Shown here: one piece after another, positions 10,184 to 63,033 of the stretch
How the letters are laid out: each line of letters opens with the position of its first letter
Numbering within the stretch: the first letter of the stretch is position 1
Assembly: GCA_002118135.1 (NCBI GenBank)
Contig: BDIU01000413.1
Coordinates: 18,822 to 82,821 of the forward strand
Length of the DNA stretch: 64,000 bases
Source of the DNA: Trebouxia sp. TZW2008
Lineage: Eukaryota > Chlorophyta > Trebouxiophyceae > Trebouxiales > Trebouxiaceae
Direction of reading: 5' to 3'
Position numbers and translations under genes: made by a program
The notes under the pieces: generated by a model
The model's input: the letters and a program-made list of their open reading frames with translations, nothing else
Database searches by the model: none
What the model was told of the DNA's origin: nothing

Positions 10184-13100
10184 ATGTCTGCCTTCTCGTC
10201 TGCCATGCATGCAGGAGCGATGTATCAGACGCAGATGACCCGCCGATGCTCCTGTCACCGACTTGAGCACGCTCGACTATTGTGAGTGTGCTTGGACATA
10301 TCTCAGCGTTGCTTCTGGTCTTGTTCACAGCACATTATTGCTTTATGCCTTGTACACTGTTTGTGCACGCACGGATCCGTGCGCGAGCTTCAGTGTTCTG
10401 CTTGACTGCAACAAGATCTCGGTTAAACTGATCACGACGGTCTCAAGCTTGCCGTCTCGAGCTTCTGCTTGCTTGTCTGCAGCCGGCAAGCACCACTGCA
10501 TCGTCTGAACCTTCGGCCTGCCTTACAGCACCATGTGGATCAGCACAGAAAACGCAAGCGCACTTCTGCCTCTCAGCAAGACCCAAGCGACGCACCAAAA
10601 CGTGAAGAGCAAAGACAGCAATTGCCTGCTTCAGAGGGCACAAGCGAGCACGACAACACTGCAAGTCCCACCTCAGTCTCAACAGACCCAAACACTGTGG
10701 ATTGGCGAGAGTTCAGGTGATTGCACATTCTCAAAGCTTGCAGCTCAAGCATTTACGCCTGTGCATGCAACAACAGCATGGTCGTCAATACACAGCTTAC
10801 GCTACTTCTGCTGTCATGAGCACCATGATTGGCATGCTATTGCTGTTGCTGCCCAGGCAACAACACTGCGCACAGCTTCCAGTCCTTGTGTTGATGGTCA
10901 CAGTGTCATACTGTATCTTTGCAGCCAGCTCCTCCAGTACATGAGCGTATTCCTTTCATCTGGCCAGACGTAACCCACACATTCATGCAACATTGGCTTC
11001 ATGCAGACAAAGGGCATTCACTCTGTACGCACCATTTGGCAAGCCCGTGCTGCTCATTCACTTGTCGTCACTGCTTCCCTCATCCAAAGGGAAATCCGAA
11101 CATCAGTGAAGCCTTCGCAGCAAAATTTGTCAAAAAAGCATTTGCAGCCTCACATGCATGTCAGCTGTAGTACGGGCCAAGACAGGTAGCAAATGATAGA
11201 GGGCAATGAAGTGAAGGGGCCACTCAAGCGCATGTTGTTTGCATTACAGGGCAAGACTGATAGCAAGTGATAGAGGGCAACAAAGTGAAGGTGGCACTCA
11301 AGCAGTCAAGGGTCGCTGGGCACACAATGTGGTCAAGCCAGAGAAGGGGTGCCTGTTGTTATCACACCCTCTGATGTTCAGCGAGCGGCAAACATACTTC
11401 TCACAGGTGCAGTGTGTGAAAGCAATTTGCATGGACCATGATCAAGCTGCCTGAACATAGCTTGTCTCTGCTCACGATTTTGGTCCTGATTGCATATGCA
11501 AGTCAGCTCACATCTCTGTCTAGGGATGTCATGTCCTGAATGCCCTGCACAAGTCTCTGGTGAATCCACACTTTCATTAGTCAACAATGGTGCGAACAAG
11601 GCATAAAATAGCACCAAGATGGCTTGTTAGACATTCTCAGCATGTCCCTCATAGGCTTGCTGAAAAGCTGCATTGTCAAAACCTCAAAGCGCCTTTAATG
11701 TATTGCTTGTTCTTGGATGGTCTCATGCGTAGCAGGCAGTCACTGCATCCTATCAAATCAGCATGCTCCCATAAACTCTACTTTGTAGGAAAGTCACGTA
11801 CTCATATACTGCTCACATGTCTTAGCACATGCTGCAGGCATTGATGTTTGGTCATGACGATAAAGCAAGCGCTGGCTTGATCTTGACTAGACCCACAAAG
11901 CATGTTCTGGGCAGGTTGATTAGCGCTGATAGCCTGTTTAACTAACGTACCATGACGCACGATGCAGGCAGTCATCATCTTGATGTGTAACCGTGATGAC
12001 AAAATGAGCGCTGGCTTCATCCTGAACAGACCCACAGAGCATATGCTGTGCAGGTGGATTGGCGCTGATGACACATGCCCACTCACATACTGTAGCACGT
12101 GCTGCAGGCAGTGATCTTCCTGTTTGATCATGATGACAAAGCAAGCGCTGGCTTCATCCTGAACAGACCAACAGAGCATGTTTTGGGCAGATTGATTGGT
12201 GCTGACGACCTGTGCCCAGAGTTTGCAGACAACCCCTTGTATCTGGGAGGGGATGTGGGCCATGACACCATGCATTTTTTGCATGGCTATTCTGACATAC
12301 AGGTGGGTCTGTGCATGTATGGCGTGACAGGCCTGTAACAGCTGAGGTGGTTTCTACCCACAATGCATGACTTGCCTGAAAAGACGATGTTGCATGAATG
12401 TCGTCTATTTTGAAAGATTGTTGCTGGGACTACTGTATGTCATCAATGCCACAGCGCAGGGTCTGTGTGGGCATGCGTTGCTGCACACAACAAGCAGCAG
12501 GCACACCTGTCCATCCACGTTTCCATCATGCAAAGCATTATCACTGACCAAAACTTTGCAAGGCTTGTATGCACGTACATACATAAATGCATGGTGATTT
12601 ACAGTAAGCAGTGCATACAAAACTGCATGTAATGAGCAGTGGTGTCTCATCAGGTCGTGAGGATGTCTTGTTGCTATGCAGGGTGCTCTTGAGGTTGTCC
12701 AAGGCGTGTTCATGGGCGGATATGAAGAAGCCAGGGCTGGCATCAAGACAGGGACAAAGGATGCCAGCCAGTTCAGGTGGGTGCTGTCAATCATTGCATG
12801 TTTACAAGTCATGGGACCCAGCTGGCTCTAACAAATGTGGGGATGAGTCACCCAGACAAGAAAGTTGTTCTGCAACACCAACCCATACCAGAGTCGTGCA
12901 TCAAGAAGTTGTGATCTGACGTCTGTTGCCAAAGCTGCAGCTGCAGCCTCTGTGCTGTGAAGCGCTGGTCGCGGGTGCTGTAAAGCAGACATGGCTAAAT
13001 TTGGGGATGGGACACCGTGCAACTCCAATGACTACTCTGGTCATGCATTCAGGCTGAGCAGTCCTTGCAGTACAGCTCTAGGCACATGCATTGTTGTCAT

Positions 13101-13846: not shown

Positions 13847-16800
13847 TCACATGTGTAGCTTAATGATAGCACCACCACTAGCAGGCTTTGAAGCAAAGAT
13901 CACTTCTTCCAGCTGGTCGCCTTTCACTTTGCCGTCCTTTATACACTTGTCAAAGTAGTTCGACTTGAGAGCAGTGATGAACTGAGCAGCATCAGCTTGC
14001 TTGATGAGGGATACAGCACAGCCACCCCACCCTGCTCCTGTCAGACGGCTGCCCAGTGCCCCTTGCTTCTTGCTCTCTGCAATCAAGGTGTCTAACTCCT
14101 CACAGCTGCACTCGTACAGCTCCCTGCACAGCATCTCAAAGTCATTGACCACCACAGTACTTGGATGCAAGACTGCAGGCAGCTGTCTTGCAAACAACAT
14201 AAATGGCCTGATGGCATCAGTCTTTGGCAATGTGGTAAGTACAGCTGCTCTGTACTGGTCTCAGAGATGCTGACCTCCAACCGTTGCCCTATGTGATCTT
14301 AATGTGAAACAGTGACATGAATGTACAGGAACATGACGCACAATGGGCCTATCGTCCACCTCATGGTGCAGCATGCTGTGACTTGTGTCAAAGGCATGGC
14401 TGCTCGTGTGGCCATGAGATCAACCCTGCGCAACCCTGAATGTCGTTTGATTGCAGCTACACTATTGGTGCAACTGCAAGCTTCAAGGCCATCAACAAGT
14501 GGCTATCATGTTATCAATCAGCAAAGCCATCACTGGTTATTGTGTTGCCACATGGTATCAGCTGATGCAATGGGCAAGAGGTAAGTTGCAGCATCACACC
14601 TGCAGCTAGTCTGGCTGGTGTCATTGTAGCCGTCATTTCAGTACATGTGCCAGAATGGGTAAATGTGCTCTCATGTTTTGCTCGTTCGTCTTGCATATTG
14701 GTAGCACTGCTTTCATGATGATGATGATGAATAACATTGTGATTGTCACCTGCAGCTAGTCTGACTGGCATCCATGTAATCACCCAGCTGCTTCAGTTTA
14801 TCCTCCTGTGACAGCTGCTCATTGTTGCACACCCTCTGGAACTCCTTCACGCGTTGTGCCTCAGCAAAGACATGCAGGGTGCGCTGCTGTAGCTTGAAAC
14901 CTCCTGCTCTGGCCGCTACAGGAATGGAGCGCTGTTGACTGGGGTTGTCCTCAAACAGCTTGGTTAGGCTGGTGCCCAGCAACCCCTCAATCTCTGCCTG
15001 CACACCACATGCATCTCTGTGTCTACTAGTCTGTCTACCAGTCTGTCTGCTATTCTGTCTACGAGTCTGCATATTGAGCATGCAGGGTGCATTGCTGTAA
15101 CTTGAAGCGTCCTGCCTTTGCAACCACAGGATTGAGACTTGGGTTGTCCTCGAACGCTTGGTCAAGCTGGTGCCCAGTAAGCCCTCAATCTCTGCCTGCA
15201 CAGCACAAAAACAGAAGCTGTGAGGCCCTGCCCCAAGGACATTGTAGCTTGAAACCCCCTGCTCTTGCAGCTACAGAAATGGAATGCTGTTGGCTGGGAT
15301 TGTCTCTAAACAGCTTTGTCAGACTGGTGCTCAGCAGTCCCTCAATTCTACCTGCACAGTATGCAACACCTGGGTTTTACTCTGGCACTTACAAGGCTGT
15401 CAAAAGCAACGCGAAGAGCGCTGCTGTGGCTTGAAGCGTCCTGCCTTGGCCGCTAAACAGTTTTTGGCAAAAGCAAACAATAGTTCAAGGCCACACACAA
15501 CAGAATTACCATCCAATCTAGTCAGGAGATCAGATTTGACAGTCCTTAAAGGCATCTTTTGGAGCATAGGTACCTGCTCATAGGGCGCCTCATGCAGAAA
15601 TTGCTTAGCTGACTGGCAGGCGGCATCACTGGCTGACTGCTGCGACGCATCCAGCTTGCTGACTGCTAGCTCCTCGACCTCCTTCAGTATCCTCACGCCA
15701 ACAGCCTTCTCCTGCATGATCACTTGCAACCCGAACCCGTCAGCCAGATGCGGCACAACAAAGCTGTTTCATGAGCAGGAGTGCCTGAATGAAGAGCAGG
15801 ACCGATGTGACCCATTGGCAGCAAGGCATTGCATGGTGGGTCACATTGCACAGTGTTCTGCCAGCTTCTGCTGTTGCAAGTCAGTCACTACATTGGTCTA
15901 ACCCATCCTTGCTGTGTGAATACCATGACTTCTTGTGATTTTGATTTTTTGTTCACATCCGGTGACTTCGGGAACATGCAAAGGGATGCCTCATTATCTG
16001 TCAAGACACTGACAGCTGATTGTATCTGTACATACTTGGTTACTGAGTTCCAAGGCCTGCCTAGCAAGCATTACTTGATGGGCGGACAGGCGGACAGACG
16101 GTCAAACGGTCAAACAATCCGCGAGCGAGCAAGCAAACAAAAGAACCAATGAGATGAAGAACTCTGTACCTTGGACATGCCAAGCGTAACAGCTAGCACA
16201 GCTGCAGCCAGCTTGCACTCCACCACTCTCATGTTGTACCGCCCCGCTGCTGTCTCTGCCTTGTTGGAGACTGTCAGGGAGTTGGCAATGACAAAGACTG
16301 CGCCTTCAGGCAGCACCACATCAGACGCTCTGATCTGCACTCACAACACAAAATGTTCACTGCAGTCATTAAGGAACACCCTGAATTGCTGTCTGTGTTG
16401 TGTTGGACACTGTCAGGGAGTTGGCAATGACAGGAATAGCACCTTCAGGCAATGTCACATCTGATGGCATGATCTACACTCACAAAATTAAGAGAAGTCT
16501 TTACGTGCTGTGCCTACGCGACTCATGTTGTACCGTGCAGCTGCTGTTTCTGCCTTGTTAGAGACTGTCAGAGAGTTTGCAAAGGCCAAGACTGCGCCCT
16601 CAGTCAACGCCACTTCAGACGCTCTGATCTGCACTCACAACATCAAGAGAAGTCATCACATGCTGTGCCTACACAGCTCATGTTGCGCCGCCCTGCTGCC
16701 GTCTCTGCCATTTTGGACACTGTCAGGGAGTTGGCAGTGACAAAGACTGCGCCTTCAGCCAGCACCACATCAGATGATCTGATCTGCATTTAAAGAAGGA

Positions 16801-19800
16801 AGTCTACTGACTGGAACTCAGAGCTCCACTGTTTCTGCCTCATTGGAGACTGTCGGGGAGTTGATCATGACAAGAACCGCGCCTTCAGGCAGCACCACAT
16901 CAGACTACCCCAAACACACTCAAAACAACATTGCAATGCTGTTGTGAGTGTAGATGGGGACGTCTGATGTGGTGCTGCTTGAAAGCGCGATATGACCATA
17001 GTCACATTGCACAATGTTGCTATGGTCATACTTGCAAGTGTGCATCTGCTCATGTGCTGTCACTGACAAGGTGACGCTGAGACTGACCAGATTGCACTCA
17101 ATGAGCTTGGCAACTCAAGATTTGTACCCAGCTGAGTTCACACAGAGGCACACTTTTTGCTACAATCAAGTTGTGCTGACACTTAATGCGCCGATGAGCT
17201 TTATGAGCTTGGCACTGTGAGGCTTTGGGGTTTGTACTGATGCACATGAATGATGCATTAACACAAGCATTATCATCATGATGCTGGTGCTAACACTTGA
17301 TGAGTTGAACTTGATGAGCTTGGCAATCTGGGCCATGCCCGTCATGGAATTGCCAATACACACATGCAATGGTGCTAAACATGTGCCATTGTGGTGAACA
17401 AACTGCTGGAATTTACTGAGCTATACTTGATGCAGTTGACAACCTAGACCATGGGTGCGCAGCTAGTCTTACACTGATACGTTGCTCTTGCATAGGAGTT
17501 GGAACGATGGTACTAATGCTGCAGCATACCGTAGTAAAGCCAATGAGTTTGGCATTGCACAGTTTGTCTCGCAACTGGTGTTGCACATATGATGATTGTG
17601 AGGTCAGAGCTTACTGGGTTGAACTCAATGAGCTTGGCAATTTGAGGCATTGCCATCATGGAGATGGCTTGGTCCATCCCCCCAGACTCTGTGCCCACAT
17701 ACCTCTCACATGTAGTCGTGAACTCAGCAACGTCCTGCAGCAAGAGTGTTACAAGATTGTGACGCTTGCAATAATGGCAACTATCGTGGAGCCTGCTCTG
17801 CTTGGCGCATTCCTGAAAAACGTGCTTGACACTCAGCCACGTCTCGCACCATCAGCACAGCAGCTTTGTGACGCAAGTCTTTACAGTGCTGCTGTTTATG
17901 GCCCTTTGAGCGTGGGCTGCTGGCATAGACTGCAACTGACATGGAACATGTTCTGTTTTGCACAAGCCTCTCACACTAAGCTATGTCCTGCAGCCTCAAC
18001 AAGAGACCTTTGTGATACTTGCGCCCACAGAAACACTGTTCAAAATCTGCATTGCCGATACGAGACCTTTTTGGCACAAAATCAAGCAACGAGGCTGTCC
18101 ACAGCCCCTTTGAGGTGGGCTGCAATTGACCTATGGGGCATGTGTTGCACAATCTAAAATTGCTGTACCACAAGCTGGAGGTTTGTGTACGATGGACAAT
18201 TGGGTTTTGGTGTATTGCAGGACTGACACAGGGACTTGGCACAAGTATCCTCATTAAATACAACGTGTTTGGCAAATGCAGTCTGGCAACTCATCAAGGT
18301 TCCATCAAGCTCCCTTAGCCACATCATATGGCAGATACTCAATATCTGATTTTCAGATCCTCTTAAGCACGTGCAGCAGCAACTGACAATCAGAGCTGAG
18401 AAGGTGTTGAGCAAGCAGCAGAGCTGAAACAGGTAGTAGGAGTCAACGGTAGCGACCAAAATTCACAGCAGTCAGATGCATTTAGTAGCAGCTGGGCAAG
18501 CAATGGCGCAAGACGAGAATCATGCAAAACGTCTTGCTTGGCTGTGTATAATTAGATGCTACACACAAGGTAGGCGCATGACTGTGAATAAGTGCGTGAT
18601 GCTATGCATGGCGCACATAATCTTGCTTGGCTGTGATATTCAATGTGACTGCTATTAATGCATGATAATGCAATGTTGCGCACCATCATGCTTTGCTGGG
18701 GGGCGCCAAAGGCCGCCAGCAAGATGATGTGACTGCCCCATACGGTAAACATGACTGTGGTGTGACAGTGCATGGCTCATGGCGGTTACTATGCGCATCA
18801 CATGTGTATGATGCGCACCGTCTTGCTTTGCTGGGAGGCGCCAAAGGCCGCCAGCAAGGCAGTTGGACTATAATATATCTACGACAGATGCACAACTGCA
18901 ACTGCATGCATGACTGTGACTGCATGCATGACACGGTCATCAGGCGCACCGTCTTGCTTTGCTGAGGGGCGCCAAGGGCCGCCAGCAAGGCAAGGGCAGC
19001 CACACACACAAAGGCAGAGGAACTAGACAGGCCCGCCCCTGCACCGCATGCCAAACCCTCTCAGCCTACAACCCATGACCCTACTGCAGTGCATGTTGTG
19101 GTTCTCTTTCAGGAAGACTTTCCTATTGTAAGTGGGACTTGCCTAACTGCAGGGTGCATACACTCACCCTGGTGCATTGTCCTGCTGATCTGTCTTGCGG
19201 CAAAGGGATAGCTTCGAAAAGGAAGTCCTATCCCACATGGGCCTGACCCATTTGCAGGATAACCACAATGACCTTGTTGAGGTTCCTTGTGATAAGTTTG
19301 TTTTTCTTGTCGCTGTTGCTGAAAAGACTCTGCTTGTTCTGTTGGAAAAGGCTGTCCTAGCAAAACTGGGTCTGACCAATCGAAGCAGCAACTACCTTTC
19401 AAGCTAAGCTACAACCATTGTCCAAAGTTTTGCATGTTGTTCAAAGAGGGATCAGAATTCTGAGAACGTGTGGAGAACAAGGGGCCTGAAGTGTCTTACC
19501 GATTTGGTGACAGCAATGCCAAGCACCCCAAGAATGGCCAAAGAGGCTGAACAGGTGAAAGCTGCAGAGCTAGATAGGCCAGATCCTGCAAAAGGGAAAA
19601 GAACCTAGACCAAGGATGAGGGCACAAGGGACTCAACAGTCACCCTGGTACTGGGTCAATTGGTAGCAGTCTGAATTGCAAGACTGAGAAGCGTCACGCT
19701 ACTTCACACACTTTTTTACTTGTGGTGGCAGATACTGAAAGGGCCAAAGTTGCTGCAGGCAGGGAGCTCTTATGATGTAGGACATGGCGGCTGAGAATGA

Positions 19801-21363
19801 TGATGATTTCGCTAGACCAGCGGCAAAAGGGACAAACATAATGATGATGAAACACATGGGATCAAAACGCATTGTGACAATTCTGCTGAGAAAGGTGCAG
19901 AAGCAGGGAACAACAAGCAGTGAACATAGTGAGATGATGACAATGGCTGTACCTGTTGGGACCTGGCCATGCAGCATGACTTGAAGCCCCACAGGTGTTG
20001 GCGCCTTGCCTTGCCTCTCAAGAAACTCAAACACACCCTGGAGTCAAAAACCAGGCTTACATGCTGCAAATCAGGTCTGACTTCTCTGGGTTCGCAACAA
20101 CAGCTTCACAGACACAACTTGACAGATCCAGCTTGATCAATGCGGCTTCATACTGCAGCTTCACAAGCACAGCACACAGCAGCCTTGCACTGACACAGCT
20201 CTTGCTTACCTTGTATGCTGCCAGGAAGTAGTTTGCCCAGGTGTGGTTTTCTAAGTCCACTCGCTGCAGGGCAACAGAAGATTGATTGCGCGTTGTAATT
20301 ATGCATTGGGCATGTGAAGCATTGCGACTGACTGCATTGCAAAAGGCCACGGAACGCAGGTGCGAATTTTCACTACACATGCAAAATATCATATTGCCAA
20401 CAGGCAGCAGGGAGTGATGACCTTGTGGATTAGCATGGCAATAGGCAAGGGAGCATGCAATACCTGCTTGGGATCAAGGCTGAATGTTGCGGTTGGGTAT
20501 TTCTTTTCATCCATGTTAGAGACAGTCAGGTTGTCACCGCCTTGTTTGATGGCAACGACAGTGTCCTGCAGACAAATGAAGCTGTGATGTGAATCACAAG
20601 CAAGCCTGGGCACGGATTTTGTGTTGATGCCCGTCTTCTCAAGGCTGTTGCACTTGTGATATGTCAAGGGTGTAGTAGTCCAGCTACAAAGTTGTGATCC
20701 AAATTCATGCAAGATGTTGTTGCTGAGTGCAGCTACGCATGCTACCTCATGCAGAAAAGAAAAAGAAAAAGAAAAGTCTACGCCAATAGGCATCATAAAG
20801 GGAGCCTCTGTCTAAAGAGGCAACCCGGGAGTGCTGCTTTGAAAGCAGCATCCTCATGCATGCACATGTATTGCAAATGACAGAAATACATGTAAATCAA
20901 CTATGAAGCAATGCTACTGCAACGCAACATCGGCAGTGACATGTACTTTTGTGTATCTGCATCTTCATGTGCTTGCAACCAATTGCATCAGAAAAAGGCT
21001 GACCTGGCGAATAGCCATGGGCAGCACAGCATAGCCTTCATAATCTATGTGCTCTCCAATCAAGTTAACTCTGCCTGCAAGCCGATCGAAATCTCATCAC
21101 GTCTCCTAGCCAAATGTGAGCATGCCGCAGAAGTGTCTGACAAGCTGACCTGGAGCCCGTGCAAACAATGTCGGCCTTGATCCGAAACGCTCCGAGAAGC
21201 CGTCTGAAAGCCGTGCGTATCGCTCTTGTGCTGCAGGAGTGCCTGCGGGTTTGATCGATCAGCATAGCACATCGCATGGCTCTGCTGGATGCACAGCGTC
21301 AAACGCACCGTCGACGCCGTAGACCGAGGTCAACTCAGTATAAGTAGGTACTGTGTCGGCCAT
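13847..21363 (-). CDS. GALK: Galactokinase (GHMP kinase, plant GAL1/GALK2 type)
   Basis: Twelve exons on the minus strand: 21363-21309, 21230-21150, 21074-21004, 20565-20464, 20263-20210, 20037-19953, 19585-19500, 17734-17615, 16334-16170, 15711-15574, 14997-14750 and 14123-13847. This gives 493 residues, close to plant galactokinase. Start [16 protein letters not shown]. Motif 1, [14 protein letters not shown], falls near residues 46-59 (sugar binding); motif 2, [10 protein letters not shown], near residue 150 (phosphate loop); [14 protein letters not shown] has the catalytic-region Asp; motif 3, [17 protein letters not shown], is near residue 430. It phosphorylates galactose (or N-acetylgalactosamine in GALK2) at C1 using ATP, in the cytosol. 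An alternative exon at 19038-18950 could replace exon 7. Introns 7-11 hold many decayed exon copies. Shares a 303-bp divergent promoter with the trigger factor gene. Confidence 0.95.
14583..15362 (-). repeat. Decayed copies of galactokinase exon 11
   Basis: Partial copies of exon 11 (14997-14750) occur on both sides. About 14640-14583 repeats its 3' end and donor ('cacctgcagctagtctg' read on plus). About 15200-15087 and 15362-15240 repeat its acceptor and first 80-100 bases ('ccctcaatctctgcctgcac'). All carry substitutions or small indels and no full-length frame. Confidence 0.8.
16375..16920 (-). repeat. Four decayed tandem copies of galactokinase exon 9
   Basis: Copies lie at about 16380-16470, 16510-16640, 16675-16800 and 16820-16920, upstream (in gene sense) of exon 9 at 16334-16170. 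Each repeats the acceptor and about 90 bases coding (I/V)[18 protein letters not shown] to ETAAGRYNM, then breaks off at the same point before the exon's 3' half and donor. Two copies keep the frame open. A short inverted fragment of the unit follows at about 16950-16990. Period about 130-150 bp. Confidence 0.9.
17075..17460 (-). repeat. Decayed copies of galactokinase exon 8 3' part
   Basis: Segments at about 17080-17130, 17285-17355 and 17410-17460 contain 'ttgatgagcttggcaa' variants matching the end of exon 8 (code for QIAKLIEFN) with its donor side. They lie downstream of exon 8 in gene sense. A further partial copy of the exon 8 start lies near 17840-17870. Confidence 0.7.
18690..18875 (-). 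repeat. Two copies of the 3' half of alternative exon 7B
   Basis: The stretch 'ggcgccaaaggccgccagca' recurs at about 18704 and 18837, matching the 3' end of the exon at 19038-18950 (coding [13 protein letters not shown]) and its donor side. The 5' part with the GLSSS motif is absent from both copies. Confidence 0.8.
18950..19038 (-). CDS. GALK: Candidate mutually exclusive exon 7B of galactokinase
   Basis: This 89-bp segment has a clean acceptor (GGTGCAG) and donor (ACG|GTGCGC), enters in phase 1 and leaves in phase 0, exactly like exon 7 (19585-19500, 86 bp). It codes [19 protein letters not shown], then [11 protein letters not shown]; exon 7 codes [19 protein letters not shown], then [10 protein letters not shown]. 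Both fit the family's motif 2 followed by a helix. Codon usage differs widely while the pattern G-x-GLSSS-x-AF-x-C-x-A is kept, so selection on the protein is likely. Including both would duplicate the phosphate loop, so they would be alternatives. Expression is not shown; it may instead be a recently dead duplicate. Confidence 0.6.
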
Positions 21364-27498: not shown

Positions 27499-27532
<34 letters not shown>

Positions 27533-33741: not shown

Positions 33742-34299
33742 ATGCCAGTCTCGGCAGGCGCGGGACGTACTCTTGTGCCTTACTTCAGCAGCTCAGACGA
33801 ATGTGTAAACGAGACTCTGAGTAAATCGCACGGGGAAGCTGCAAGGTGCGATAGCTTTGCAGGGCTTGCGTGAAAAGCTTTGTGACTGCACTTGCATGAA
33901 TCTTTTGCGAACGCACCATCACGGCATATTTCAGGGCTGTAAAGCACCATCACGGCATATTTCAGGGCTGTAAAGTGCTTGTGTGCTCGTAGAAACAGAA
34001 GGAAGGCCGGTAAGAAGAGCGTTGCAAAATCAGAGGAGATGCGCTCCCAAGCTGGCAGCCCACCCAAGCAACTTCCAAAAGCTGCTGCAGCAAAGCAGCG
34101 AGGGACTTCATCTGGTAGATCTGCAGTTCTGTACACTTCTCACAGCAACACTGAAGTAGCACAGCGCCTGAGCGACATGAAGTCAGTGAGTGTTGGCAAT
34201 TCAAATGATGCAAAGGCCTGGGCTGGACCCAGCTACTATACTTCCCCCCCTCCAGAAGACTTGCCAATGCCCACACCATTTTTGCTTAGTGTATCATAG
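33742..34299 (+). CDS. Small basic protein with PNRC-type EVH1-binding motif
   Basis: Two exons, 33742-33845 and 33993-34299; 136 residues, phases agree (donor GCAAG|GTGCGA, acceptor CTCGTAG). After a short Ser-rich N-terminus comes a basic stretch (NRRKAGKKSVAKSEEM) and near the C-terminus WAGPSYYTSPPPEDLPMPTP. This matches the short linear motif of proline-rich nuclear receptor coactivators and their plant relatives, (Y/F/W)AGP-x-F-x-SP-x-P-x-x-LP-x-P, which in animals binds the EVH1 domain of the decapping factor DCP1. A role in mRNA decapping is an inference from that motif alone. The intron contains a perfect 31-bp tandem repeat reaching close to the acceptor. Confidence 0.7.
33914..33975 (+). 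repeat. Perfect 31-bp tandem duplication in the PNRC-gene intron
   Basis: The unit starting 'caccatcacggcatatttca' and ending 'gggctgtaaag' occurs twice head to tail without a mismatch, 17 bp before the exon 2 acceptor. It must be recent. Confidence 0.95.
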
Positions 34300-49000: not shown

Positions 49001-52000
49001 TACCTAGCTGGGCCTGCTGAGCCTGTCTAGCACATGTCTAACGACATCAAAAATTCGCCTTTTGCAGGATGCAAGCAGACTGGCCTTGAAGATGGTGACC
49101 GACTACGGTCTCTCAGACTTTGGCATCACCACATATGCGCCAAATGCAGGGGCGAGGCGCATGAGCTATCAGGCATGCTCGTGCTGTTTGCCTTTCATTG
49201 TGCATTCAATAGATTTCTTGTACCTGGCAGCGCGCAAGCTATCAGGCATGCTTTTGTTGTGCCTTTTGTTGTGCATTCATCAGATTGCTTGTACCTGGCA
49301 GCACACAAGCTATCAGGCATGCTCGTTCTGTTTGCCTGTCATTGCACAGTTGCCAGATCCCTTGTACCTGGCAGCGTGCAAGCTATCAGGCATGCTCATT
49401 CTGTTTGCCATGTGTTGTGCACGTATCAGAATACTTGTGCCTGGCAGCACACAAGCTATATCAGGAAACTCATTATGTTTGCCTTGCATTGTGCACTTAA
49501 CAGAATAATTGTACCTGGCAGCACACAAGCTGTCAGGCATGCTCATCCTTTCTGCCTGTCGTTGTTCAACCCTCAGAATGCTTGTACCTGGCAGCACACA
49601 AGCTCTCGGGGCATGCTCATTCTGTCAGCCTCCCATTGTGCACGCGTCAGAACGATTGTGCCTGGCAGCACACAAGCTATCAGGCATGCTCGTCCTTTCT
49701 GCCTGTCGTTGTCCAACCATCAGAATGCTTGCATTTGGCAGCGCACAAGTCATTAGGCAGGCTCATTCTGTTAGCCCTCCATCGTGCACTAACCAGAATG
49801 CGTGTACCTGGCAGCACACAAGCTATAGGGATGCTCATTCTGTTTGCCTTGTGTTGTGCACTTGTTGGAACGCCTGTACCTGGCAGCTCGCAAGCTATCA
49901 AGCATGCTCATTCTTGTCCCTTTTGTTGTGCACGTATCAGAATGCTTGTACCTGGCAGCACACAAGCTATCTGGCATGCTCATTCTGTTAGCCTTGCATT
50001 GTGCACTAATCAGAACGCTTATACCTAGCAGCACACAAGCTGTCAGGCATGCTCATTCTTTCTGCCTTTCGCTGTGCACTTAATAGATCCCTTGTACCTG
50101 GCAGCACACAAGCTATCAGGCATGCTCATCCTTTCCGCCTGTTATTGCGCACTTTCCACAGGCTTGTATCAGGCATGCGCATTCTGTTTGCCTTCCATTG
50201 CGCAGTTGCCAAATTGCTTGTACCTGGCAGCACACAAGCTATCAGGCATGCTCATTCTGTTTGTCTTGTGTTGCGCACTTACCAACCAATCAATCAATCG
50301 ATCAATTCAAAAAAGAATTCTATTGTTTTCTGACCTTCAGAAGCTGAACATTACACATCCTCACCATGATGCTGGCGAGACAAGGCTTGTGTAACACACA
50401 TGTGCCAGAAGTCAAAGATGGTCACTGACAGTTATCATGACGGTCATCACTATTGTTGTCGTCATCATTGTTGTCATTGTCATAGACTGCCTGAACCTCA
50501 TGGACATATAGTCATTGCCACTGTGTGGCACATGTGCTCAGCCTTGTTGGATGGCTCAAGCATGTTGAATTCCTCTCTCTCTCTGTCTCTTGTTGACAAG
50601 CGATTCTGTTGCAGATGGATGAGGACGCAATCGACCAGAATTTATTCCGTACTCCAATAGGGCAGGCCCCGTACAATCCCTGCAGTGAGACTTGGACCGC
50701 CATCAAGTGTCAAGCCTACACCCTAGTCACCGAGGCTTACAACAAGAATCTGGTGAGCCTTCACCCACAGTGCTTACTTCACTTCAATTCATTCATTCTT
50801 GACGAGTGCTAGAGAGGCTCAGCCTCAGGCTTCTGTTCACTTGAGTGACACAAACAGATGTCACGTCCAACCTTGTGACGCACCAGCCTGTGTCAGAGCA
50901 CATAACAAATTTCACGGTGCAAAGCACCAGCCCAAACCAAGCATATGTCAAGTCATTGAGGCTTATGACAAGAATCTGGTGAGCCTTCACCCACAGTGCT
51001 TTCTCTCTCCTCTGTGAGTTGAATGACACAAACACATGTCAAGCCCACCCTTGTGATGTACCAGCCTGTGTCAGAGCACATAACAAATTTCACCCTGCAA
51101 AGCACCAGCTCAATCCCAGCATATGTCAAGTCACTGAGGCGCATGACAAGAATCTGGTGAGCCTTCACCCACAGTGCTTTTTCTCTCCTCTGTCGCTTGA
51201 ATGACACAAACACATGTCAAGCCCACCTTTGTGATGTACCAGCCTGTGTCAGATCACATAACTTCTTGCAAAGCACCAACTCACTACAAGCATATGTCAA
51301 CATCTACCTTGTCCTGCACCATCTTCTGTCAAGAGCACATCCCAGGTTCCACCTTATCCCTTGCCAGCTTGTGTGAAGAGCATATAATAGCATAGTCACT
51401 CAGGCTTATGGCAAAAATCAGGTCAGTCTACTCCCATGGTGGACTTTCTTCACCGCAATGACAAAAGCGTTTGTCAAATTTCACCTTGTGATGCACGAAA
51501 TCTTGTCAAGAGCACACAGCAAGCCCAACCTTGTTCTGTAACAACTTATGTCAAGAGCCCATGCCAACCTCATATTGTACCAGCTCACGTCCAATACCTA
51601 TATGACGCCCTGCTACAATTATGTCAGTGTCCTGTGAACTTTGCCTGCCTTAGAGGAGCCAACCATGTTGCGTGTCCAGTCTCTCAGCAGCAAGCTGAGT
51701 TTGCCATGATCTGCTTGTGTTCTGTGCTGCAAGTGTTTCGGTGTGATCTGGGGTGTGCTGTGTGAAGCTAACCTGTTCATGCCTGAGAGAGCATGAAATG
51801 ATGCGTATTGTGTGTCCAGTCTCTCAACAGCACGCTGACTTTGCCATGATTTGCTGCACTTATTGCAGCTGCTGTTCATCTTTTGGCAAAGATGGTGAAA
51901 CAGGACTTGTGCGATGCACACCTATCACAAGTGTTAAGGCTGTGACCATTGTTATTCTTCTGGCAAACATCGATGAGGTTTGTTCATTCAACAGGAAGTG

Positions 52001-52876
52001 TTGAGGCGGCATAACAATGCTTTGAGGCAAGGGGCGCTTGAGCTTCTGAGGATTGACACCTTGACTGGCCCGGCTCTGAAGGACATCATGGACAAGAACC
52101 CACCCACAGATGGCAACCAGCAGGTACAGTAACCTCTTGATATAAGGACGTTCTCGATGTAAGTACAATGCAACTGGGAATCAAGCACTGCATTCTGACT
52201 ACAGTGGTTCCTCTGAGTAAGGACAGTTTGATGTAAGGACAATTTGCTGGTAATCAAAGCAATCGTTACAAAGAGAGTTTACTGCAATGTAGTATAGCGC
52301 CTCACAGCACACACCTGTTCTACTCTGGGGCCTGTCAATCACAGCAGTGATTGTTTGATCGAACTGCTCAGCATGACATTGCTTGTTAGTTGCAATTTTG
52401 CCATCAGCAGAACGAGGCATGCTCACTCAAGACAGGCATACGTGTTGAGGCACAATGTGTGCTGTGTTTCTCTGTTGGGGTCAGGCACTACATCTGAAGC
52501 ATAATCAAGGTACGCAGACGGTCCCATTGTTAGGCGCTCTTCAAGTCGTTCCAGACATTGCACCTGATATGCTGTGATTGCATGCAGAATAGCCCATTCA
52601 TGGTTGTTGTTTGACTTGTCGCAAATTTTATACATGATGCACAGTGAATGTATGTAGGCCGGGCCATTTGTTTTGTCTGAGTTGTTGCATCATGCCTTAT
52701 GCATAGAGGTGACATGCAGATTGGCTCATTTTCCAAATCTGTTCAAGCTGCTGCAGACACAATGCCTGATGCTCAATGATGCCATGCAGGTTGGTCCATT
52801 CTTCGGTGGCGGTGGAGGCGGCAATCCCAGTGGCTCCAATGCACCAACACCTATACTCGCTGGCAGCTCAAGTTGA
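37067..52876 (+). CDS. FTSHI: FTSHI: inactive FtsH-like AAA protein lacking the zinc site, plastid type
   Basis: Firm exons: 37855-37920, 38197-39140, 39776-40067, 41314-41533, 43904-44037, 45509-45584, 46413-46522, 47150-47301, 48514-48676, 49068-49172, 50615-50752, 51995-52123 and 52790-52876 (871 codons, all phases agree). ATG 37067 and an exon near 37271 (RRPLLIRAS, transit-like) are tentative. A long acidic N-terminal domain precedes the AAA module. Walker A is GDPGVGKT (39996-40019, Asp for the usual Pro), Walker B IIFVDEID, and the second region of homology [20 protein letters not shown]. The M41 zinc motif HExxH is replaced by YEVGK (47207-47221), so proteolysis is not expected; plant FTSHI proteins share this and act in plastid import/biogenesis complexes. 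The C-terminus ends in a Gly-rich tail. Introns occupy about 80% of the gene and consist largely of exon-boundary repeats; intron 49173-50614 is GC-AG. Confidence 0.9.
39505..39720 (+). repeat. Four tandem units of about 50-60 bp in an FTSHI intron
   Basis: Units share 'gagaagctgtgtccagcat' with 1-3 changes, followed by a variable 'gtcattgtttgcctt' part. They precede the exon at 39776 and may be very decayed copies of its acceptor region ('gcaggaagccagatgtgatc'). Confidence 0.75.
40785..41250 (+). repeat. Four decayed copies of the FTSHI exon at 41314
   Basis: Copies at about 40790, 40930, 41055 and 41180 each carry the acceptor region and the exon start coding [12 protein letters not shown]; 'cctgcagatgagtggcagtg' recurs almost unchanged. 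The last copy extends furthest (to GVCAARVL). Period about 130 bp. The exon used is the fifth and last unit, the only one with a full frame and donor. Confidence 0.92.
41528..41935 (+). repeat. Three tandem copies of the donor side of the FTSHI exon 41314-41533
   Basis: Units of about 138 bp start at 41528, 41665 and 41803 with 'catcaagtgagcaagcattg' or variants and include 'ttgtgatgctcacaacaagc'. The first contains the real splice site; in the third the donor GTGAGC is GTCAGG. Confidence 0.9.
42200..43860 (+). repeat. About 14 decayed tandem copies of the FTSHI second-region-of-homology exon
   Basis: Acceptors 'tttgcaggctctgg' or variants occur at about 42209, 42348, 42470, 42585, 42722, 42869, 42933, 43066, 43217, 43281, 43420, 43563, 43637 and 43767, most followed by 'atggctgcaaccaacagggc' and a degenerate LDAALTRPG segment. 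Only the last unit (43904) continues to RFDWIVPV and a donor. Some units are short (about 65 bp, ending after 'ggactt'), giving alternating spacings and a higher-order pattern. Several stay open for more than 80 codons purely through the repeat. Confidence 0.95.
44550..45245 (+). repeat. About five decayed copies of the FTSHI exon at 45509
   Basis: Units at about 44555, 44705, 44865, 45018 and 45170 each contain 'acacacgc(a/c)aagccactgg' and 'gtggacttggctcaagtggc', matching the exon coding [18 protein letters not shown]. Each then runs into 'catcatcattgttg' intron sequence. Period about 150-160 bp. Confidence 0.92.
45250..45423 (+). mobile_element. MITE-like element 1 (TA-flanked, terminal inverted repeats)
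   Basis: The 174-bp element begins GAGTAAACTCTTGTTGTAA and ends with its inverted repeat (reverse complement CAGCAAGCTCTTGTTGTAA) and is flanked by TA on both sides. The interior has repeated 'gatgtaaggaca' motifs. TA duplication and this kind of terminus are typical of non-autonomous Tc1/mariner-pogo elements. Related copies lie at 48680 and 52127. Confidence 0.75.
46295..46360 (+). repeat. Decayed copy of the FTSHI exon at 46413
   Basis: 'acaagcttgactgatgcagg' followed by 'agcgtagctggaaaatgtca' repeats the acceptor and first bases of exon 46413-46522 about 115 bp upstream. Weaker fragments occur at about 45930-46040. Confidence 0.85.
47385..47965 (+). repeat. Four decayed copies of the FTSHI exon 47150-47301, downstream of it
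   Basis: Copies at about 47398, 47528, 47748 and 47915 match the exon's 3' half (code for [15 protein letters not shown], then VPRGR) with its donor side. The second is longest and begins at [10 protein letters not shown]. Here the intact exon is the first unit, unlike most arrays in this gene. Confidence 0.9.
48130..48480 (+). repeat. Three decayed copies of the FTSHI exon at 48514
   Basis: Units at about 48145, 48292 and 48383 carry acceptor plus 'tggagctccacaacatttct', and two include 'gagcacacggggccgcatga'. All break off before the exon's second half (LAGRAAEEV). Confidence 0.9.
48680..48857 (-). mobile_element. MITE-like element 2, starting at a 5' splice site
   Basis: It begins CAGTGAATTCTCTTGATG directly after the GTA of the donor at 48677-48679 and ends near 'gtgggttgactg'. 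The interior, including 'tcaaactgtccttgctcaga', matches the reverse complement of the element at 52127. Left flank is TA; right flank is AA. Confidence 0.65.
49173..50280 (+). repeat. GC-AG intron made of about 15 tandem units of roughly 73 bp
   Basis: The exon ends AGCTATCAG followed by GCATGC. The same 'aagctatcaggcatgctc' recurs with small changes at about 49227, 49303, 49377, 49526, 49675, 49890, 49967, 50037, 50109 and 50238, with weaker units between. Each unit also has 'cttgtacctggcagcacaca' and 'tgtttgcctt'. Thus most units contain a copy of the exon end plus its GC donor. The acceptor is far downstream at 50614. Confidence 0.93.
50880..51425 (+). repeat. Three decayed copies of the FTSHI exon 50615-50752 3' end
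   Basis: At about 50945, 51122 and 51390 the sequence 'tgaggcttatgacaagaatc' (code for TEAYDKNL) or variants and, in the first two, 'tggtgagccttcacccacag' repeat the exon end, donor and intron start. Two donors are intact GTGAGC. Period about 175 bp. Confidence 0.9.
52127..52284 (+). mobile_element. MITE-like element 3, starting at a 5' splice site
   Basis: It begins CAGTAACCTCTTGATATAAG right after the GTA of the donor at 52124-52126 and ends with the inverted repeat AGAGAGTTTACTG. It shares the 'gatgtaaggaca' and 'gtggttcctctgagtaagga' interior with element 1. Left flank TA, right flank CA. Confidence 0.7.
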
Positions 52877-58189: not shown

Positions 58190-61100
58190 ATGATCAGCAA
58201 GTTGCTGTTTGCGCAAAAGCTTTTGCGGCAATCCGCTGTCGTTCGCGTGAGCGAAGCGAACTCAGCTGCTGCATCCTTTTTCATCAGACAGTCATCTGCA
58301 CCTTGTCAGGTGCGTTGTGGATTACCGCGTTCGCAGTGTCTGCAACATGCACGCAGACATTGCGCAGACCTGTCACGACAACCTGAGCTTTTGCATACCC
58401 TCACGCTACCTTCGGGCTTTGCAGCGGTCTTACCAAACAGGCGCACAGGAAGTTGAACCATGGCCGTTCTCCGGCAGCGCAATCGAAGAGGTGAAGTTTT
58501 ATGTCTATGCATGTCCAAAACACAACACGCAGTGTATACGTACTATGATAGCAATTCAAACCACAGACTGATGCCTCTCATGCAAATGCTGCAGGCTGAG
58601 ACGCCTCCCTCTTCTTGGTATAGCTCAGCAGCTGTCTTGCAAGCTGAGCTTGCTTCTGTCTTCAACAACTCTTGGCTGGTAAGCCATAGCTCTGCAGCTG
58701 CAGTTCAAAACGTCCTGTGATGCTTGCAATGCCTCACCACTCAAGATCAGTGGGATCAATTCAACATTATGCATAAGTCGTCAACACATAATGCAACATT
58801 GCAATTGTGTACTTTGCAGTTGATGGGTGAATCAGACAAGCTGCAGCAGCCTGGGGATTTTATCTCAGCACTGATCACAGACAGACCCTACGTGGCCTGC
58901 ATTGATCAATCTGGCGACTTGCGAGCATTTCACAATGTGCGCTGCCATCACCATTTCTCACCAGCTCGCAGGCTAAATCTGCTGTGTAATGCATGATCCT
59001 GTTCTTACGCAATTTGTGTATCAGGAGTAACTGCTACCCCTTCAGAAAAACCTGATGCTGTGCTGTGATGCAAACTGCTCATGTTGCTAGAGCACGGGCA
59101 GCTGCAAACACATCAAGCTTGCTCTGATACATGCTGCTGTGCTGTGATGCGATACGCTTATGCTGCTAGAGCACTTACGGCCGTGGACATGTCGAGCTTG
59201 CTCTGGTATATGCATTATGATGCAATGCACTTATGAAGCTAGAGCACTAGCAGCTGCAAACATATTGAGCTAGCCCGATATATGCTGCTGGATTGTAATG
59301 CAACGCTCTCTTGATGCTGAAATCATGGCAATTCAGAACGTATCAAGCTTTCTCTGACACACTCCTTGTATGTGTTTCAGGTTTGCAGGCATCATGCTGC
59401 TGCTGTCTGCACTGAGGCGCATGGCAATGCAAACTGCTTCCAATGTCCCTATCATGGCTGGACCTACGGTACGCCTGCTAACGTACAGCCAATCAGACTG
59501 CATGCATTTGACACTATGATTTTGCAAGGTTGGCGCTTGTCATTGATGCTAGTAGTCATCAGTAGTAGTCATCAGCAGGTGGGAGTGCTTCCTCATCTGT
59601 GTCTACATTTGACATGAATGAAGTATGAGCGCTAGCATGCGGCAGCTCTTTCCTGGGCACAGTGAGGATCCATGTTTCACGTGCAGCACAACTGCTTTCC
59701 TCAAGCTTGCTTGTACAGCGCTCACACATGCTAAGAAGGCCTGACACATTCAGTATTGCTGCAACAGCCAGAACTGACTTACACACTCCAAATGAGCTAA
59801 CTGATCCAGATCCAAATGCTTGTAACATGTCTGTGTCCAGCTTCAACATGCAAAGATTCCATTGCATGTTTGCAGGCTTAGACGGCAGGCTGCAGAAAGC
59901 AACAAAGCTGAAGGGCATCAAGTCCTTCAAGGCCTCTGAGATGGGCCTCTTGCCTGTTGCTGCAGAGAACTGGCAAGGCTTCACATTCCTGCATCTTCAT
60001 AGCGGCAGGCAAGCTACATCAAACATTTTCACCTGTGTCAACTGGTCTGATTGTGACTGTGGAGAACTGGCAGAGCTTCAGCTACCTGCATCCTGGCAGC
60101 AGCAGGCAGATACACCCAACTGTCTGGTCCATGTCAATACCTAACTAGAAAGTGCATATAACTCCGTGACAGCAGAGTGCCCAGCAGTGCATCACAGGTC
60201 GTCCCTGTTTGGGGTGATGTGGAAGCATGTATGACTGACATTGACAGTGGTGGATACAGGGTGGTGGATGCACATTCAGAGACTGCTTTGAATATGGTGC
60301 TGAAGCACTGCAGGCAGCCATCATTAGCCTGAAGGGCATAAGGTATGGCAAATCCCCCAACCACATTAAGTCAAGCGTAACTGCAAGCTGAGTCCTATTC
60401 AGTGACAATGGTGGCTGCAGAGTGCCCACATTCAAGGACTGGTTGGGCAACGGCGCTGAAGCAATGCAGGCCAGCAACATCAGCTTACAGGGCATGAGGC
60501 ATGTCAAGACACAGCACTACCAAATCAACTGCAATTGGAAGGTTTTCTGCGACAACTATCTGGTGCGCATCTCTGCTCACCTGTTAGTCCATGTGTTGGT
60601 GAGGGTGTGTTTGGTTGTCCTTTGATGGTCTAACAATCACCAGGACTCTTCAAGCGATGCAAGTGAGAAGGCAAGATTCTGTCAATGCAACAAAGTCTAG
60701 CACAGGGTTACAATAGGCGGTCATGACTCCGGCTCAGCATATACAGAAGTCTCAGCTTACCTCAGCAGCATTGCGTGATCAGGGACATGCATGACCAGCG
60801 AGAGCTGCTCATCTCTTTTAGGCTGGGCTTGCAACTTCAGCTGACAACAAATATGTCGATAGGCTGCAAGTATGATGACAAAAGTGTGCTGCAGCAATTT
60901 GAGGAACACTATGCTTCAACAATGGCAACAAGTGTGCTGCAACAGTGATACCAACAGTGTGCTGCAGGATGGAGGGTATCATGTGCCATTTGCACACAAA
61001 GATCTAGCAAGCGGTCTGACCTTGGACACCTACAACAGCCGGCTCTATGACAGGATGTCTATCCAGTCCTGTTCCACGCAGCAAGACGCCTCTGAGCCAC

Positions 61101-63033
61101 ACCAACGGCTTGGTCAGTGCTTGTGCCCCCTATTTCATGAAAAGCTATTTTCATGTGCATGAACTTGGCATTTGCTAATGCTTGTAGACGTTCCCATGCC
61201 CACACCGTCTCTCAGGCTTGTACCACTCAGCTTGGTGGTATGGCTTGGTCAGTGCTCACTCCCTGCTAATTCTGCTTTAGCGGTGTTTAGTGCATGATCT
61301 TGGCACTTCCCAAAGTCTGCAGACGTTCTTGTGTCCCAGATTCGACTGAATTTCGTGGCACTCAGCAAGACGCCTCTGAGCTAAACCAATGGCTTGGTCA
61401 GCGCTTGCTCCCTTTTGATCTGCATTCATGTTCATTTCTGCCTTTGTTCTGCAGGCATGGCTTGGTCACTGACATTCCATATCCAACCTCTGTGAGTTTG
61501 CACAAGTTTGCTTGCAAGTAGCATTGCTGACCACAGGGTGCTTGTGACACCTGTTGTGTGCAAGCAAGCATCTGTCTTTTGCTTTATTTCACTACCATGT
61601 TTGCTGCTCTGTTCAAGCTCTCGCAGTCACTTGTGTGCGGTCTGGGGGTTGTTTGACTGCACAAGCCGGGGCATTGTTAGAGTCCTTGCAGGCAGACAAA
61701 TGTATGTGCAAGCATGTAGGTGAGTTTGAGTCGGCGTAGCGTATGCCTGAATGTGATTGGGCACATGCAGTTTTGAATTTGGTACTTTTGTGTTTAATTT
61801 GGTGATGTGTCTCTGATTGACTGCAGGCAAGCAGCCGCCAGCATATGCCTTCGTCTACCCCAACCTGATGCTGAACCGCTACGGGCCTTGGTTGGACATC
61901 AATATTGTGGAGCCCACAGGCCCTCAATCATGTCAGGTCAGCAAGCAGTCTGGCTGGCTTTGATATTCAGCTGATCAGCTCAAGATGCACAAGTCACAAC
62001 TTGCACTCAAATCTGAATGCTGTGGCAATGAGGACCCCTCAATCATGTCAGGTCAGCAGTCGTGTGGCTTGGCTCGCAGACCAAAGTGGCCACATCAATG
62101 CAGACCAACAGGCATGTTGCTTGGCTCTACTGTCAAGTTCAACAGAGCACCTGCATTCAAACCTGAGTATTGTGGCCCTGAGTTCATGCTGGGTGCATTT
62201 TTGTTGACAGTTGCAGCAGGGCTGTACAAACAGTCCTACTGGTTGGCAATCATTCGTGTTCATTGTCATCACATCTGTTGCTTTGCTTGTGGCAGGTGCG
62301 CTTTGAGTACTATCTGCAGCAGGACTTTGAGAGCGATGAGGGGTATGTAAGAGAGAGCCTAGAAGCGAGTGACGCAGTGCAGCAGGAGGATGTGCGACTG
62401 TGCGAAGCAGTGCAGAGGGGCCTTAGGTCACCTGCCTATGATACCGGCAGGTAGCCCCCTCATCATTAGCCGTACTTGGAAACCTTGCAATCTGCTGCAT
62501 TCTTGATAGCTTTGGTATTGAGCTAGTTTGGTGATTTAGGTCAGTACAGCAGACTTAAGATCTGTTGCCATTGGGTTGCTTTGCCTGACATGCATAGAGG
62601 GGGCTGAGGTCACCTGCCTATCATACTGGCAGGTAAGCTCCAGCTCTTGCCATTGCACAAGCGTCCACCAAACATCTATCAACAAGCAATCATCAAGAGA
62701 CACAGAATCCTTGGCTGCCACCTTCATACCTGGTAATGGCTATCCCCGAGTCAGCGGTACCTTTGCCAGTCATGCAGTGTCATGTCTGCTTCAGGACCCG
62801 TTCGCCCCCCCCCCTCCCCCNNCCCGTCCCCCCCCCCCCCCCCCGCCCCCTCCACAAAGCACATCCACATGGCACGGGAATTGGCAAGGGCTGACCTGTC
62901 CAGAATCAGCCTCGAGCCCAGCAAGCTGTGTCCACACAATTGAGATGTTTCTGTGCTTTGCAGGTATGCTCCCAGCATGGAGCGTCCAATGTTCCACTTC
63001 CATCAGTTGCTGCACCAGGACTTATTCACATAG
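58190..63033 (+). CDS. CMO: Choline monooxygenase-like Rieske oxygenase
   Basis: Ten exons: 58190-58309, 58595-58678, 58820-58936, 59381-59468, 59876-60008, 60421-60562, 60968-61112, 61827-61936, 62296-62450 and 62964-63033; 387 residues. Exon 1 is a transit-like leader (MISKLLFAQKLLRQSAVVR). AETPPSSWY starts the enzyme as in plant choline monooxygenase. The Rieske motif is CRH, 17 residues, then CPYH in exon 4. The mononuclear iron site is GGYHVPFAH (His-x4-His) preceded by NCNWKVFCDNYL. Later landmarks are FVYPNLMLNRYGPW, DVRLCEAVQRGLRSPAY and HFHQLLHQ. In plants CMO oxidises choline to betaine aldehyde in the plastid using reduced ferredoxin, the first step of glycine betaine synthesis; that substrate is inferred here. 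The 60008 exon ends in a GC donor (GGCAG|GCAAGC). Decayed exon copies lie in several introns. TGTAA at 63201 and 63270. Confidence 0.9.
60040..60350 (+). repeat. Decayed copies of Rieske gene exons 5 end and 6 start
   Basis: About 60060-60110 repeats exon 5's end with 'agcagcaggcagatac', matching the GC donor region. About 60172-60220 and 60262-60350 repeat exon 6's acceptor and code ('gcagagtgccca', 'ggtgctgaagcactgcaggc'). So the intron holds copies of both of its own flanks. Confidence 0.75.
61190..61470 (+). repeat. Decayed copies of the Rieske gene exon 60968-61112 3' end
   Basis: 'ctcagcaagacgcctctgag' and 'ccaatggcttggtcagcgct' at 61352-61405 repeat the exon end, donor and intron start. 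Shorter 'atggcttggtca' fragments occur at 61240 and 61456. Confidence 0.8.
62030..62075 (+). repeat. Copy of the Rieske gene exon 61827-61936 end
   Basis: 'cctcaatcatgtcaggtcag' repeats the last exon bases plus donor about 110 bp downstream. The duplicated donor is intact. Confidence 0.85.
62590..62640 (+). repeat. Copy of the Rieske gene exon 62296-62450 end
   Basis: 'gaggtcacctgcctatcata' followed by 'ctggcaggtaagc' repeats the exon's last 25 bases and donor about 180 bp downstream; the copy's donor (GTAAGC) is stronger than the real one (GTAGCC). Confidence 0.85.
62806..62852. repeat. Poly-C tract with undetermined bases
   Basis: A C-rich run interrupted by two N at 62821-62822, inside the last Rieske gene intron. 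It is probably a sequencing or assembly weak point; true length is uncertain. Confidence 0.9.

Follow-up and report, generated by a model that had tools for sequence, protein, structure and literature searches.

Exon-edge echo arrays in the introns of Trebouxia sp. TZW2008 and their excess at acceptor sites

Arrays and genes of the window

The window, a 64-kb stretch (~50% G+C) of contig BDIU01000413.1 from the green alga Trebouxia sp. TZW2008, belongs to a 68.54-Mb assembly made up of 527 contigs. Its genes include: (i) galactokinase, trigger factor and FTSHI (FtsH-like AAA protein), whose exons are mapped by homology, (ii) UPF0301 and a Rieske oxygenase, the names of which are backed by Pfam DUF179 and a domain match, respectively, and (iii) eIF5A, the exons of which fall within 27409-39436 (Pfam eIF-5a). 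Introns of several of these genes carry local tandem arrays in which a splice site and the adjoining exon edge recur as decayed copies, here termed echoes, beside the working copy (Table 1).

Self-comparison of the window reveals 30 clusters of local direct repeats, with 128 direct-repeat matches at most 4 kb apart, one farther apart and three inverted; three shuffled versions of the window give no repeat matches. The copies are direct, head-to-tail and adjoin each other, as in a tandem segmental duplication array, and the best copy pair in each of 29 window arrays is 71-92% identical. Within galactokinase, trigger factor and FTSHI (the three genes), 17 of the 22 local arrays span a splice site, and an echo with at least 15 exon bases (E <= 1e-3) is found at 11/30 acceptors and 7/29 donors. 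The exon portion of these echoes measures 16-127 bases and is mostly accompanied by flanking intron; acceptor echoes sit upstream and donor echoes downstream of the working exon. A sequence-only reading of the window had described introns with tandem, decayed exon-edge copies numbering up to about 14, including an array at UPF0301, and had regarded eIF5A as free of them. Each of these observations is upheld: FTSHI exon 4 has 14 echoes inside a 2,370-bp intron, the UPF0301 array spans a predicted acceptor, and the interval 27409-39436 is free of arrays in the self-comparison, with only short repeats (periods of 3-35) listed there. The self-comparison likewise finds no arrays between 51856 and 59049. 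The same reading proposed tandem duplication, intron growth and a possible shift of the active exon. Tandem duplication is supported, and so is intron growth: in the three genes, redundant copies (array span less one unit) amount to 8,601 bp, compared to 22,309 bp of intron. No case of a shifted exon was seen in the analysis.

Exon coordinates of the three genes are based on spliced protein-to-DNA alignment with homologous proteins, which yields 12 exons for galactokinase, 10 for trigger factor and 11 for FTSHI (30 introns together). The first exon of FTSHI, which the aligner had fragmented, was fixed at 38053-39141 through an open reading frame (ORF) match to P0001. The 3' end of FTSHI exon 9 is uncertain, with a GC donor picked by the aligner; thus, the donor array at this exon (16 exon bases) is the weakest call. 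Among the donor echoes of galactokinase exon 8, a main copy (17301-17348) is joined by two weaker ones, and the likeness ends at the splice site.

Table 1. Genes and repeat arrays of the window (positions are those of the window).
Feature	Position	Strand	Details or basis
UPF0301 exon (predicted 12191-12302), acceptor-side array	11812..12218	+	unit 139; DUF179
Galactokinase gene, 12 exons	13850..21363	-	spliced alignment to P0138
Galactokinase exon 11 (14750-14997), acceptor-side array	14871..15455	-	echoes upstream; exon part up to 127 nt
Galactokinase exon 9 (16170-16334), acceptor-side array	16228..16905	-	~5 unit lengths; exon part 107 nt
Galactokinase exon 8 (17615-17734), donor-side echoes	17092..17662	-	last 48 nt of exon
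Galactokinase exon 7 (18950-19038), donor-side array	18644..18992	-	unit 135
Trigger factor gene, 10 exons	21682..28075	+	spliced alignment to P0121
Trigger factor exon 4, acceptor-side array	22718..23176	+	unit 162; exon part 116 nt
Trigger factor exon 5, acceptor-side echo	23524..23862	+	exon part 74 nt
Trigger factor exon 5, donor-side array	23919..24224	+	unit 155; exon part 111 nt
Trigger factor exon 7, acceptor-side array	24714..25317	+	exon part 110 nt
Trigger factor intron 8, array fully within	26266..26420	+	
Trigger factor exon 9, acceptor-side array	26713..27408	+	unit 197; exon part 102 nt
FTSHI gene	38053..52111	+	protein matches, spliced alignment; exon 9 3' end uncertain
FTSHI intron 1, array fully within	39437..39752	+	
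FTSHI intron 2, array fully within	40536..40760	+	unit 71
FTSHI exon 3 (41314-41533), acceptor-side array	40762..41376	+	
FTSHI intron 3, array	41528..41944	+	unit 136; only 6 nt into exon 3
FTSHI exon 4 (43904-44037), acceptor-side array	42196..43981	+	14 upstream echoes; higher-order period ~350
FTSHI exon 4, donor-side echo	43978..44185	+	shift 136
FTSHI exon 5 (45509-45584), acceptor-side array	44567..45563	+	
FTSHI exon 6, two-unit acceptor duplication	46265..46438	+	shift 85; aligned length 89
FTSHI exon 7 (47150-47301), donor-side array	47203..48030	+	
FTSHI exon 8 (48514-48676), acceptor-side array	48084..48624	+	
FTSHI, array after exon 9	49157..50284	+	~15 unit lengths; unit ~75; exon overlap up to 16 nt
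FTSHI exon 10 (50615-50752), donor-side array	50725..51459	+	unit 178; last copy weak (E 1e-3)
FTSHI intron 10, array fully within	51668..51855	+	
Rieske oxygenase, echo over acceptor of low-scoring predicted exon (60421-60562)	60239..60507	+	shift 161

Genome-wide spread, unit size and decay

The exon-edge echo pattern is real and genome-wide. The sample from elsewhere in the genome comprises 25 stretches (245.8 kb), namely a first 17 (L005-L021, 165.8 kb) and eight held-out stretches (L022-L029, 80 kb). Arrays cover 14.1% of bases in the first set, 13.6% in the held-out set and 13.6% of all 245.8 kb. Exons in these stretches were predicted by a simple gene finder that chains exons and for which the three window genes served as the training set. 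When benchmarked on its own training genes (K=4, intron penalties -8 and -11, which bracket the setting used), the finder overlapped 28-29 of 33 exons, with 26 exact, and Pfam recognized all eight of the shortened proteins picked from predicted genes of the other stretches (VWA, SIR2, kinase, CobW, cyclase, squalene cyclase, aldo-keto reductase and PI3/4 kinase). A self-trained gene finder was dropped after it drifted into extra exons, echo copies included, and the three-gene model was kept; a hold-out finder trained on its own predictions performed worse, with 15 to 21 false exons in FTSHI.

The other stretches hold 95 arrays. Those contained entirely in a confident exon were dropped, which leaves 93 at the score cut-off of 25. 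At an exon score of at least 25, 26 arrays span an acceptor, 9 span a donor and 58 span neither, such that 35/93 cross a confident edge; with a loose cut-off of 10, 53/93 span a splice edge and 40/93 do not. The pervasiveness across unrelated genes that had been read from the window is, thus, matched elsewhere in the genome. By contrast, the earlier proposal that duplication is centred on exon edges is not supported for the arrays as a whole: 58/93 arrays of the stretches and 5/22 of the three genes lie off any confident edge and, therefore, the arrays are not confined to exon edges. When edges rather than arrays are counted, at a looser E-value, echoes accompany 34/134 acceptors and 18/135 donors (three genes and first 17 stretches; Fisher p 0.014). 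As a separate observation, two array-rich stretches, L008 and L010, contain 8 and 4 inverted-repeat matches, respectively, and the other 15 of the 17 contain none.

The unit length of 124 arrays has a median of 139 bp (middle half 114-166, 5-95% range 72-219), and no unit exceeds 500 bp though shifts of up to 2,500 were allowed. The main mode, at 120-140 bp, is close to the length of one nucleosome. Unit lengths of edge arrays show no triplet bias (14, 10 and 15 arrays with remainders 0, 1 and 2 among 39 at a score of 20), and copy number does not clearly differ between edge and other arrays (median 2.6 vs 2.4; p 0.16). The 37 acceptor-spanning arrays join the 3' side of an intron to the 5' side of its exon, one of them spanning both edges of the exon. 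Of the 50 arrays with a single hit, many have an aligned length below their shift, as decayed copies should give.

Decay of the copies is close to neutral. Relative to the working copy, echoes are 80-83% identical in their exon parts and 70-77% in their intron parts. The AG is intact in 60/72 echoes that reach the site and the GT in 15/24; among echoes covering 20 bases on either side, the counts are 41/50 and 12/15. Acceptor cores in echoes (25 acceptors) are 0.906 identical, compared to 0.836 for the exon flank (p 0.014) and 0.746 for the intron flank (p 0.0015), whereas donor cores show no such difference (0.811 vs 0.802 for the exon flank). Between a constrained working copy and a neutral echo, a core identity of ~0.87-0.90 is expected by our own estimate; the observed value is near this figure and, thus, echo splice sites are read as near-neutral. 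The echoes of FTSHI exon 4 (42196-43842) keep TGCAG|GC in 14/14 copies at an overall identity of 68-88%; these echoes are linked by a higher-order repeat and so are not independent observations, and their higher-order relatedness may explain the retention of the motif. Overall, echo splice sites look neither purged nor clearly maintained.

Excess of arrays at acceptors

For a null expectation, each array was collapsed to one unit and a segment of the same length was placed uniformly, not wholly in exon, with placements that cross exactly one edge scored as edge arrays. In the three genes, 16/22 arrays are edge arrays compared to 7.3 expected (17 with FTSHI exon 9 extended to 49172), with 11 at acceptors, 6 at donors and 5 at neither, where 3.7 are expected per edge type. 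The first 17 stretches give 25/63 edge arrays against 10.4 expected, and the held-out stretches 10/30 against 5.6 (z 2.1; 7 acceptor, 3 donor). Over all 25 stretches, the 26 acceptor and 9 donor arrays compare with an expectation of 7.7 per edge type. In the pooled data, acceptor arrays number 37 against 11.4 expected, or 3.25-fold (p 0.003 for the acceptor share), while donor arrays number 15 against 11.4, or 1.32-fold (Poisson p 0.18). The seven window arrays outside the three genes include one edge array where 0.5 is expected (single analysis). Thus, of the non-random excess at exon edges suggested by the sequence-only reading, the acceptor part withstands comparison with random tandem duplication, whereas the donor part is close to what neutral simulations give (1.01-1.16).

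Some of the excess could arise in detection, as an exon copy changes more slowly and edge pairs therefore remain detectable longer. When exons were masked before detection (three genes and L005-L021), 21/42 edge arrays and 39/43 other arrays were still found; by our arithmetic, the 21 compare with ~12.5 expected among 60 at the null-test rate. As a crude correction, the odds of placement at an edge were doubled, upon which z is still 2.2 in the three genes and, depending on the cut-off, 0.8-2.2 in the first stretches. Forward simulations, in which duplication was uniform, decay neutral and exons constrained, and which also included deletion and, in some settings, re-duplication and indels, were analysed by the same detection and null procedure as the data. 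The ratio for the two edge types combined is 0.90-1.20 when every exon is known and 1.03-1.31 when half of them are hidden; under heavier deletion and constraint on the 40 bases upstream of the acceptor, ratios are 1.10-1.26 for acceptors and 1.01-1.16 for donors. Several of these simulations exceed the genome in array coverage and intron length, and not every feature is matched. Exon masking and simulation together rule out detection bias as the whole explanation.

The excess at acceptors is significant. Several points temper it or weigh against the explanation preferred below: (i) the three genes are no independent sample, having been chosen for the pattern, and only the other stretches are independent, (ii) exons of those stretches are predictions from a finder trained on the three window genes, (iii) the held-out ratio varies with the exon-score cut-off, between 1.44 and 2.34 (z 1.24-3.21), with a smaller excess at some cut-offs and z 1.24 at the strictest, (iv) masking cuts the excess to ~1.7-fold (our arithmetic), (v) unseen older arrays would shorten the ancestral introns and raise the edge expectation, (vi) arrays away from exon edges are not shifted towards the acceptor end of the intron (10/24 nearer to it), which speaks against a general 3'-end hotspot, (vii) exon breakpoints of acceptor arrays are near uniform (Kolmogorov-Smirnov p 0.055), with no fixed cut site, and (viii) a further cluster of units, 60-80 bp long (15/124), weakens the case for a single nucleosome-sized scale.

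Origin of the arrays and minor features of the window

Most of the pattern is explained by tandem duplication plus geometry. When a segment running from intron into exon is tandemly duplicated, only the last copy stays joined to the rest of the exon; when the segment runs from exon into intron, only the first copy does. The rule that the last acceptor-side or first donor-side unit is functional, and the break of the copies at a fixed point inside the exon, are left by any tandem duplication that crosses an edge and, therefore, are no evidence of a special process. Both features had been described in the sequence-only reading.

The arrays are probably best explained by local tandem duplication combined with survivorship through splicing and an approximately threefold excess at acceptors. 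Segments of ~140 bp would be duplicated frequently and kept when the mRNA survives, that is, when the duplication is wholly intronic or crosses an acceptor or a donor. Across an acceptor, only the last copy would run into the rest of the exon and the earlier copies would become intron; across a donor, the first copy would continue the exon and the later copies would become intron. Unequal exchange or re-duplication may then multiply the echoes to a maximum of 14 and build higher-order repeats, while the echoes decay at an approximately neutral rate and introns lengthen from their edges. Acceptor-spanning events would arise or be kept at about three times the frequency expected under uniform placement. 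This could reflect a mutational bias towards the 5' edge of exons (e.g., breaks or nicks at nucleosome borders located there) or better retention (e.g., acceptor arrays that last longer where the echoes are put to some use), of which we think the former likelier. A stronger proposal, in which a mutational process targets exon 5' edges and repeatedly duplicates about one nucleosome length from the branch-point and pyrimidine-tract region into the exon, such that introns throughout the genome grow from their 3' ends and gain decoy acceptors upstream, is possible but is advanced tentatively.

The nearest competitor, which we regard as somewhat unlikely, retains geometry and survivorship only: duplications would fall uniformly and be tolerated both within introns and over edges, edge copies would stay visible longer owing to the conserved exon, and the apparent excess would stem from imperfect gene models and overlong intron estimates. 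This accounts for the last/first rule, the fixed break, the decay of the copies, the near-neutral echo acceptors, the donor count and the loss of half of the edge arrays upon masking, but falls short of the acceptor count, as simulated acceptor ratios remain far below the observed 3.25 and the three genes, with homology-based exons, still have 11 acceptor arrays against 3.7. An improbable alternative is that the echoes are functional and serve as spare 3' splice sites or branch points for alternative splicing or stronger exon recognition. The conserved acceptor cores and the 14/14 retention in FTSHI exon 4 would fit such a role; however, third positions of the exon flank are partly free to change, so that the estimated core identity would arise without function, donor cores resemble the exon flank, edge units lack triplet bias, the FTSHI copies are non-independent and use of an echo acceptor would insert a truncated exon plus intron.

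Far less credible are a mobile and an artefactual origin, since the arrays are locally born and diverged. Introner elements provide genome-wide repeated intronic units, as in the alga, but form dispersed families, whereas the algal units are local to one exon edge. Although the units contain splice sites, as introner-like or other transposable elements with splice signals would, they match their own exon edge and, in the window, only one of the direct matches lies beyond 4 kb. A 1,279-bp array used as a query against the assembly matched only itself and three nearby places on the same contig (lower bounds), and neither this search nor the window self-comparison revealed the same unit in many unrelated genes; a mobile origin is, thus, very improbable. 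We give equally little credence to an assembly artefact: tandem repeats are easily mis-assembled, but the units differ by more than duplicated reads would, with even the best pairs only 71-92% identical.

The closest known event, on the available part of its published account, is in the potato RdRp gene, where a tandem duplication across an intron-exon boundary formed a new intron with a cryptic donor (PMC4974935). The event is of the same kind, but potato presents one gene, one duplication and a new intron, compared to the arrays of up to 14 echoes and the genome-wide recurrence of the alga. Thus, the earlier statement that no named mechanism is known was too strong, as tandem genomic duplication is named and the potato case crosses a boundary alike (PMC4974935). 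Intron gain by tandem duplication of AGGT, so far as the available parts of these papers describe it, likewise involves duplication at the DNA level with its harm removed by splicing (PMC3443670, PMC2891723); it makes introns, however, whereas the algal process lengthens existing ones. The AGGT form of intron gain is rejected here, as donor and acceptor surroundings are not copies of each other: among those of the 115 listed introns that have full contexts, mean in-register identity between the donor and acceptor of the same intron is 0.256 compared to 0.247 for mismatched pairs, and none exceeds 0.5 (best 0.40). Small tandem duplications also arise through CST/Pol alpha-primase fill-in at engineered breaks in mouse cells, according to the part of that study available (PMC8355091). 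These share with the algal arrays the direct, head-to-tail short copies without elements, but the overhangs were 43 and 49 bp (PMC8355091), compared to a mode near 140 bp in the decayed algal copies.

The alga, thus, presents a kind of event known from potato in a pervasive and multi-copy form. Patch-mediated break repair is reportedly another named route to small tandem duplications, and a putative break-repair-like route is the best-supported origin of the frequent short duplications in the alga. In the literature searched, judged by titles and the beginnings of abstracts, no publication was recognized as reporting this genome-scale load of edge-spanning arrays. How introns lengthen and how the spliceosome bypasses strong upstream acceptors are open questions usually approached through rare single cases. 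This one genome seems to provide a large set of natural experiments that differ gradually in age and in which the true acceptor or donor presumably faces competition from 1 to 14 near copies. Should the acceptor excess be upheld, a mechanism of DNA-level duplication would be tied to gene structure, perhaps via chromatin.

The remaining observations concern the genes and sequence of the window. The gene finder also called an exon within the Rieske oxygenase echo. In protein comparison, the best-scoring named relatives are Trebouxia sp. C0006 for FTSHI (50% identity) and trigger factor (63%) and Trebouxia sp. C0004 for galactokinase (70%); proteins from metagenome and read assemblies are closer than Trebouxia in places (e.g., 91% identity over 59% of the FTSHI query). 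A dispersed repeat of ~130-146 bp in the FTSHI region (45278-45423, 48680-48808 and 52140-52284; 75% identical in direct and 77% in inverted orientation) is unlike the local arrays and is possibly a small mobile element. A poly-C run at 62797-62850, with two N bases nearby, is probably a weak spot of sequencing or assembly. ORFs at 54020-54816 on the minus strand match the Pfam YbaB/EbfC DNA-binding family, a nucleoid protein of bacterial type. The homologs of trigger factor and FTSHI in Trebouxia sp. C0009 have close gene numbers (ABBQ38_009428 and ABBQ38_009425), which suggests that gene order around these two loci is conserved.

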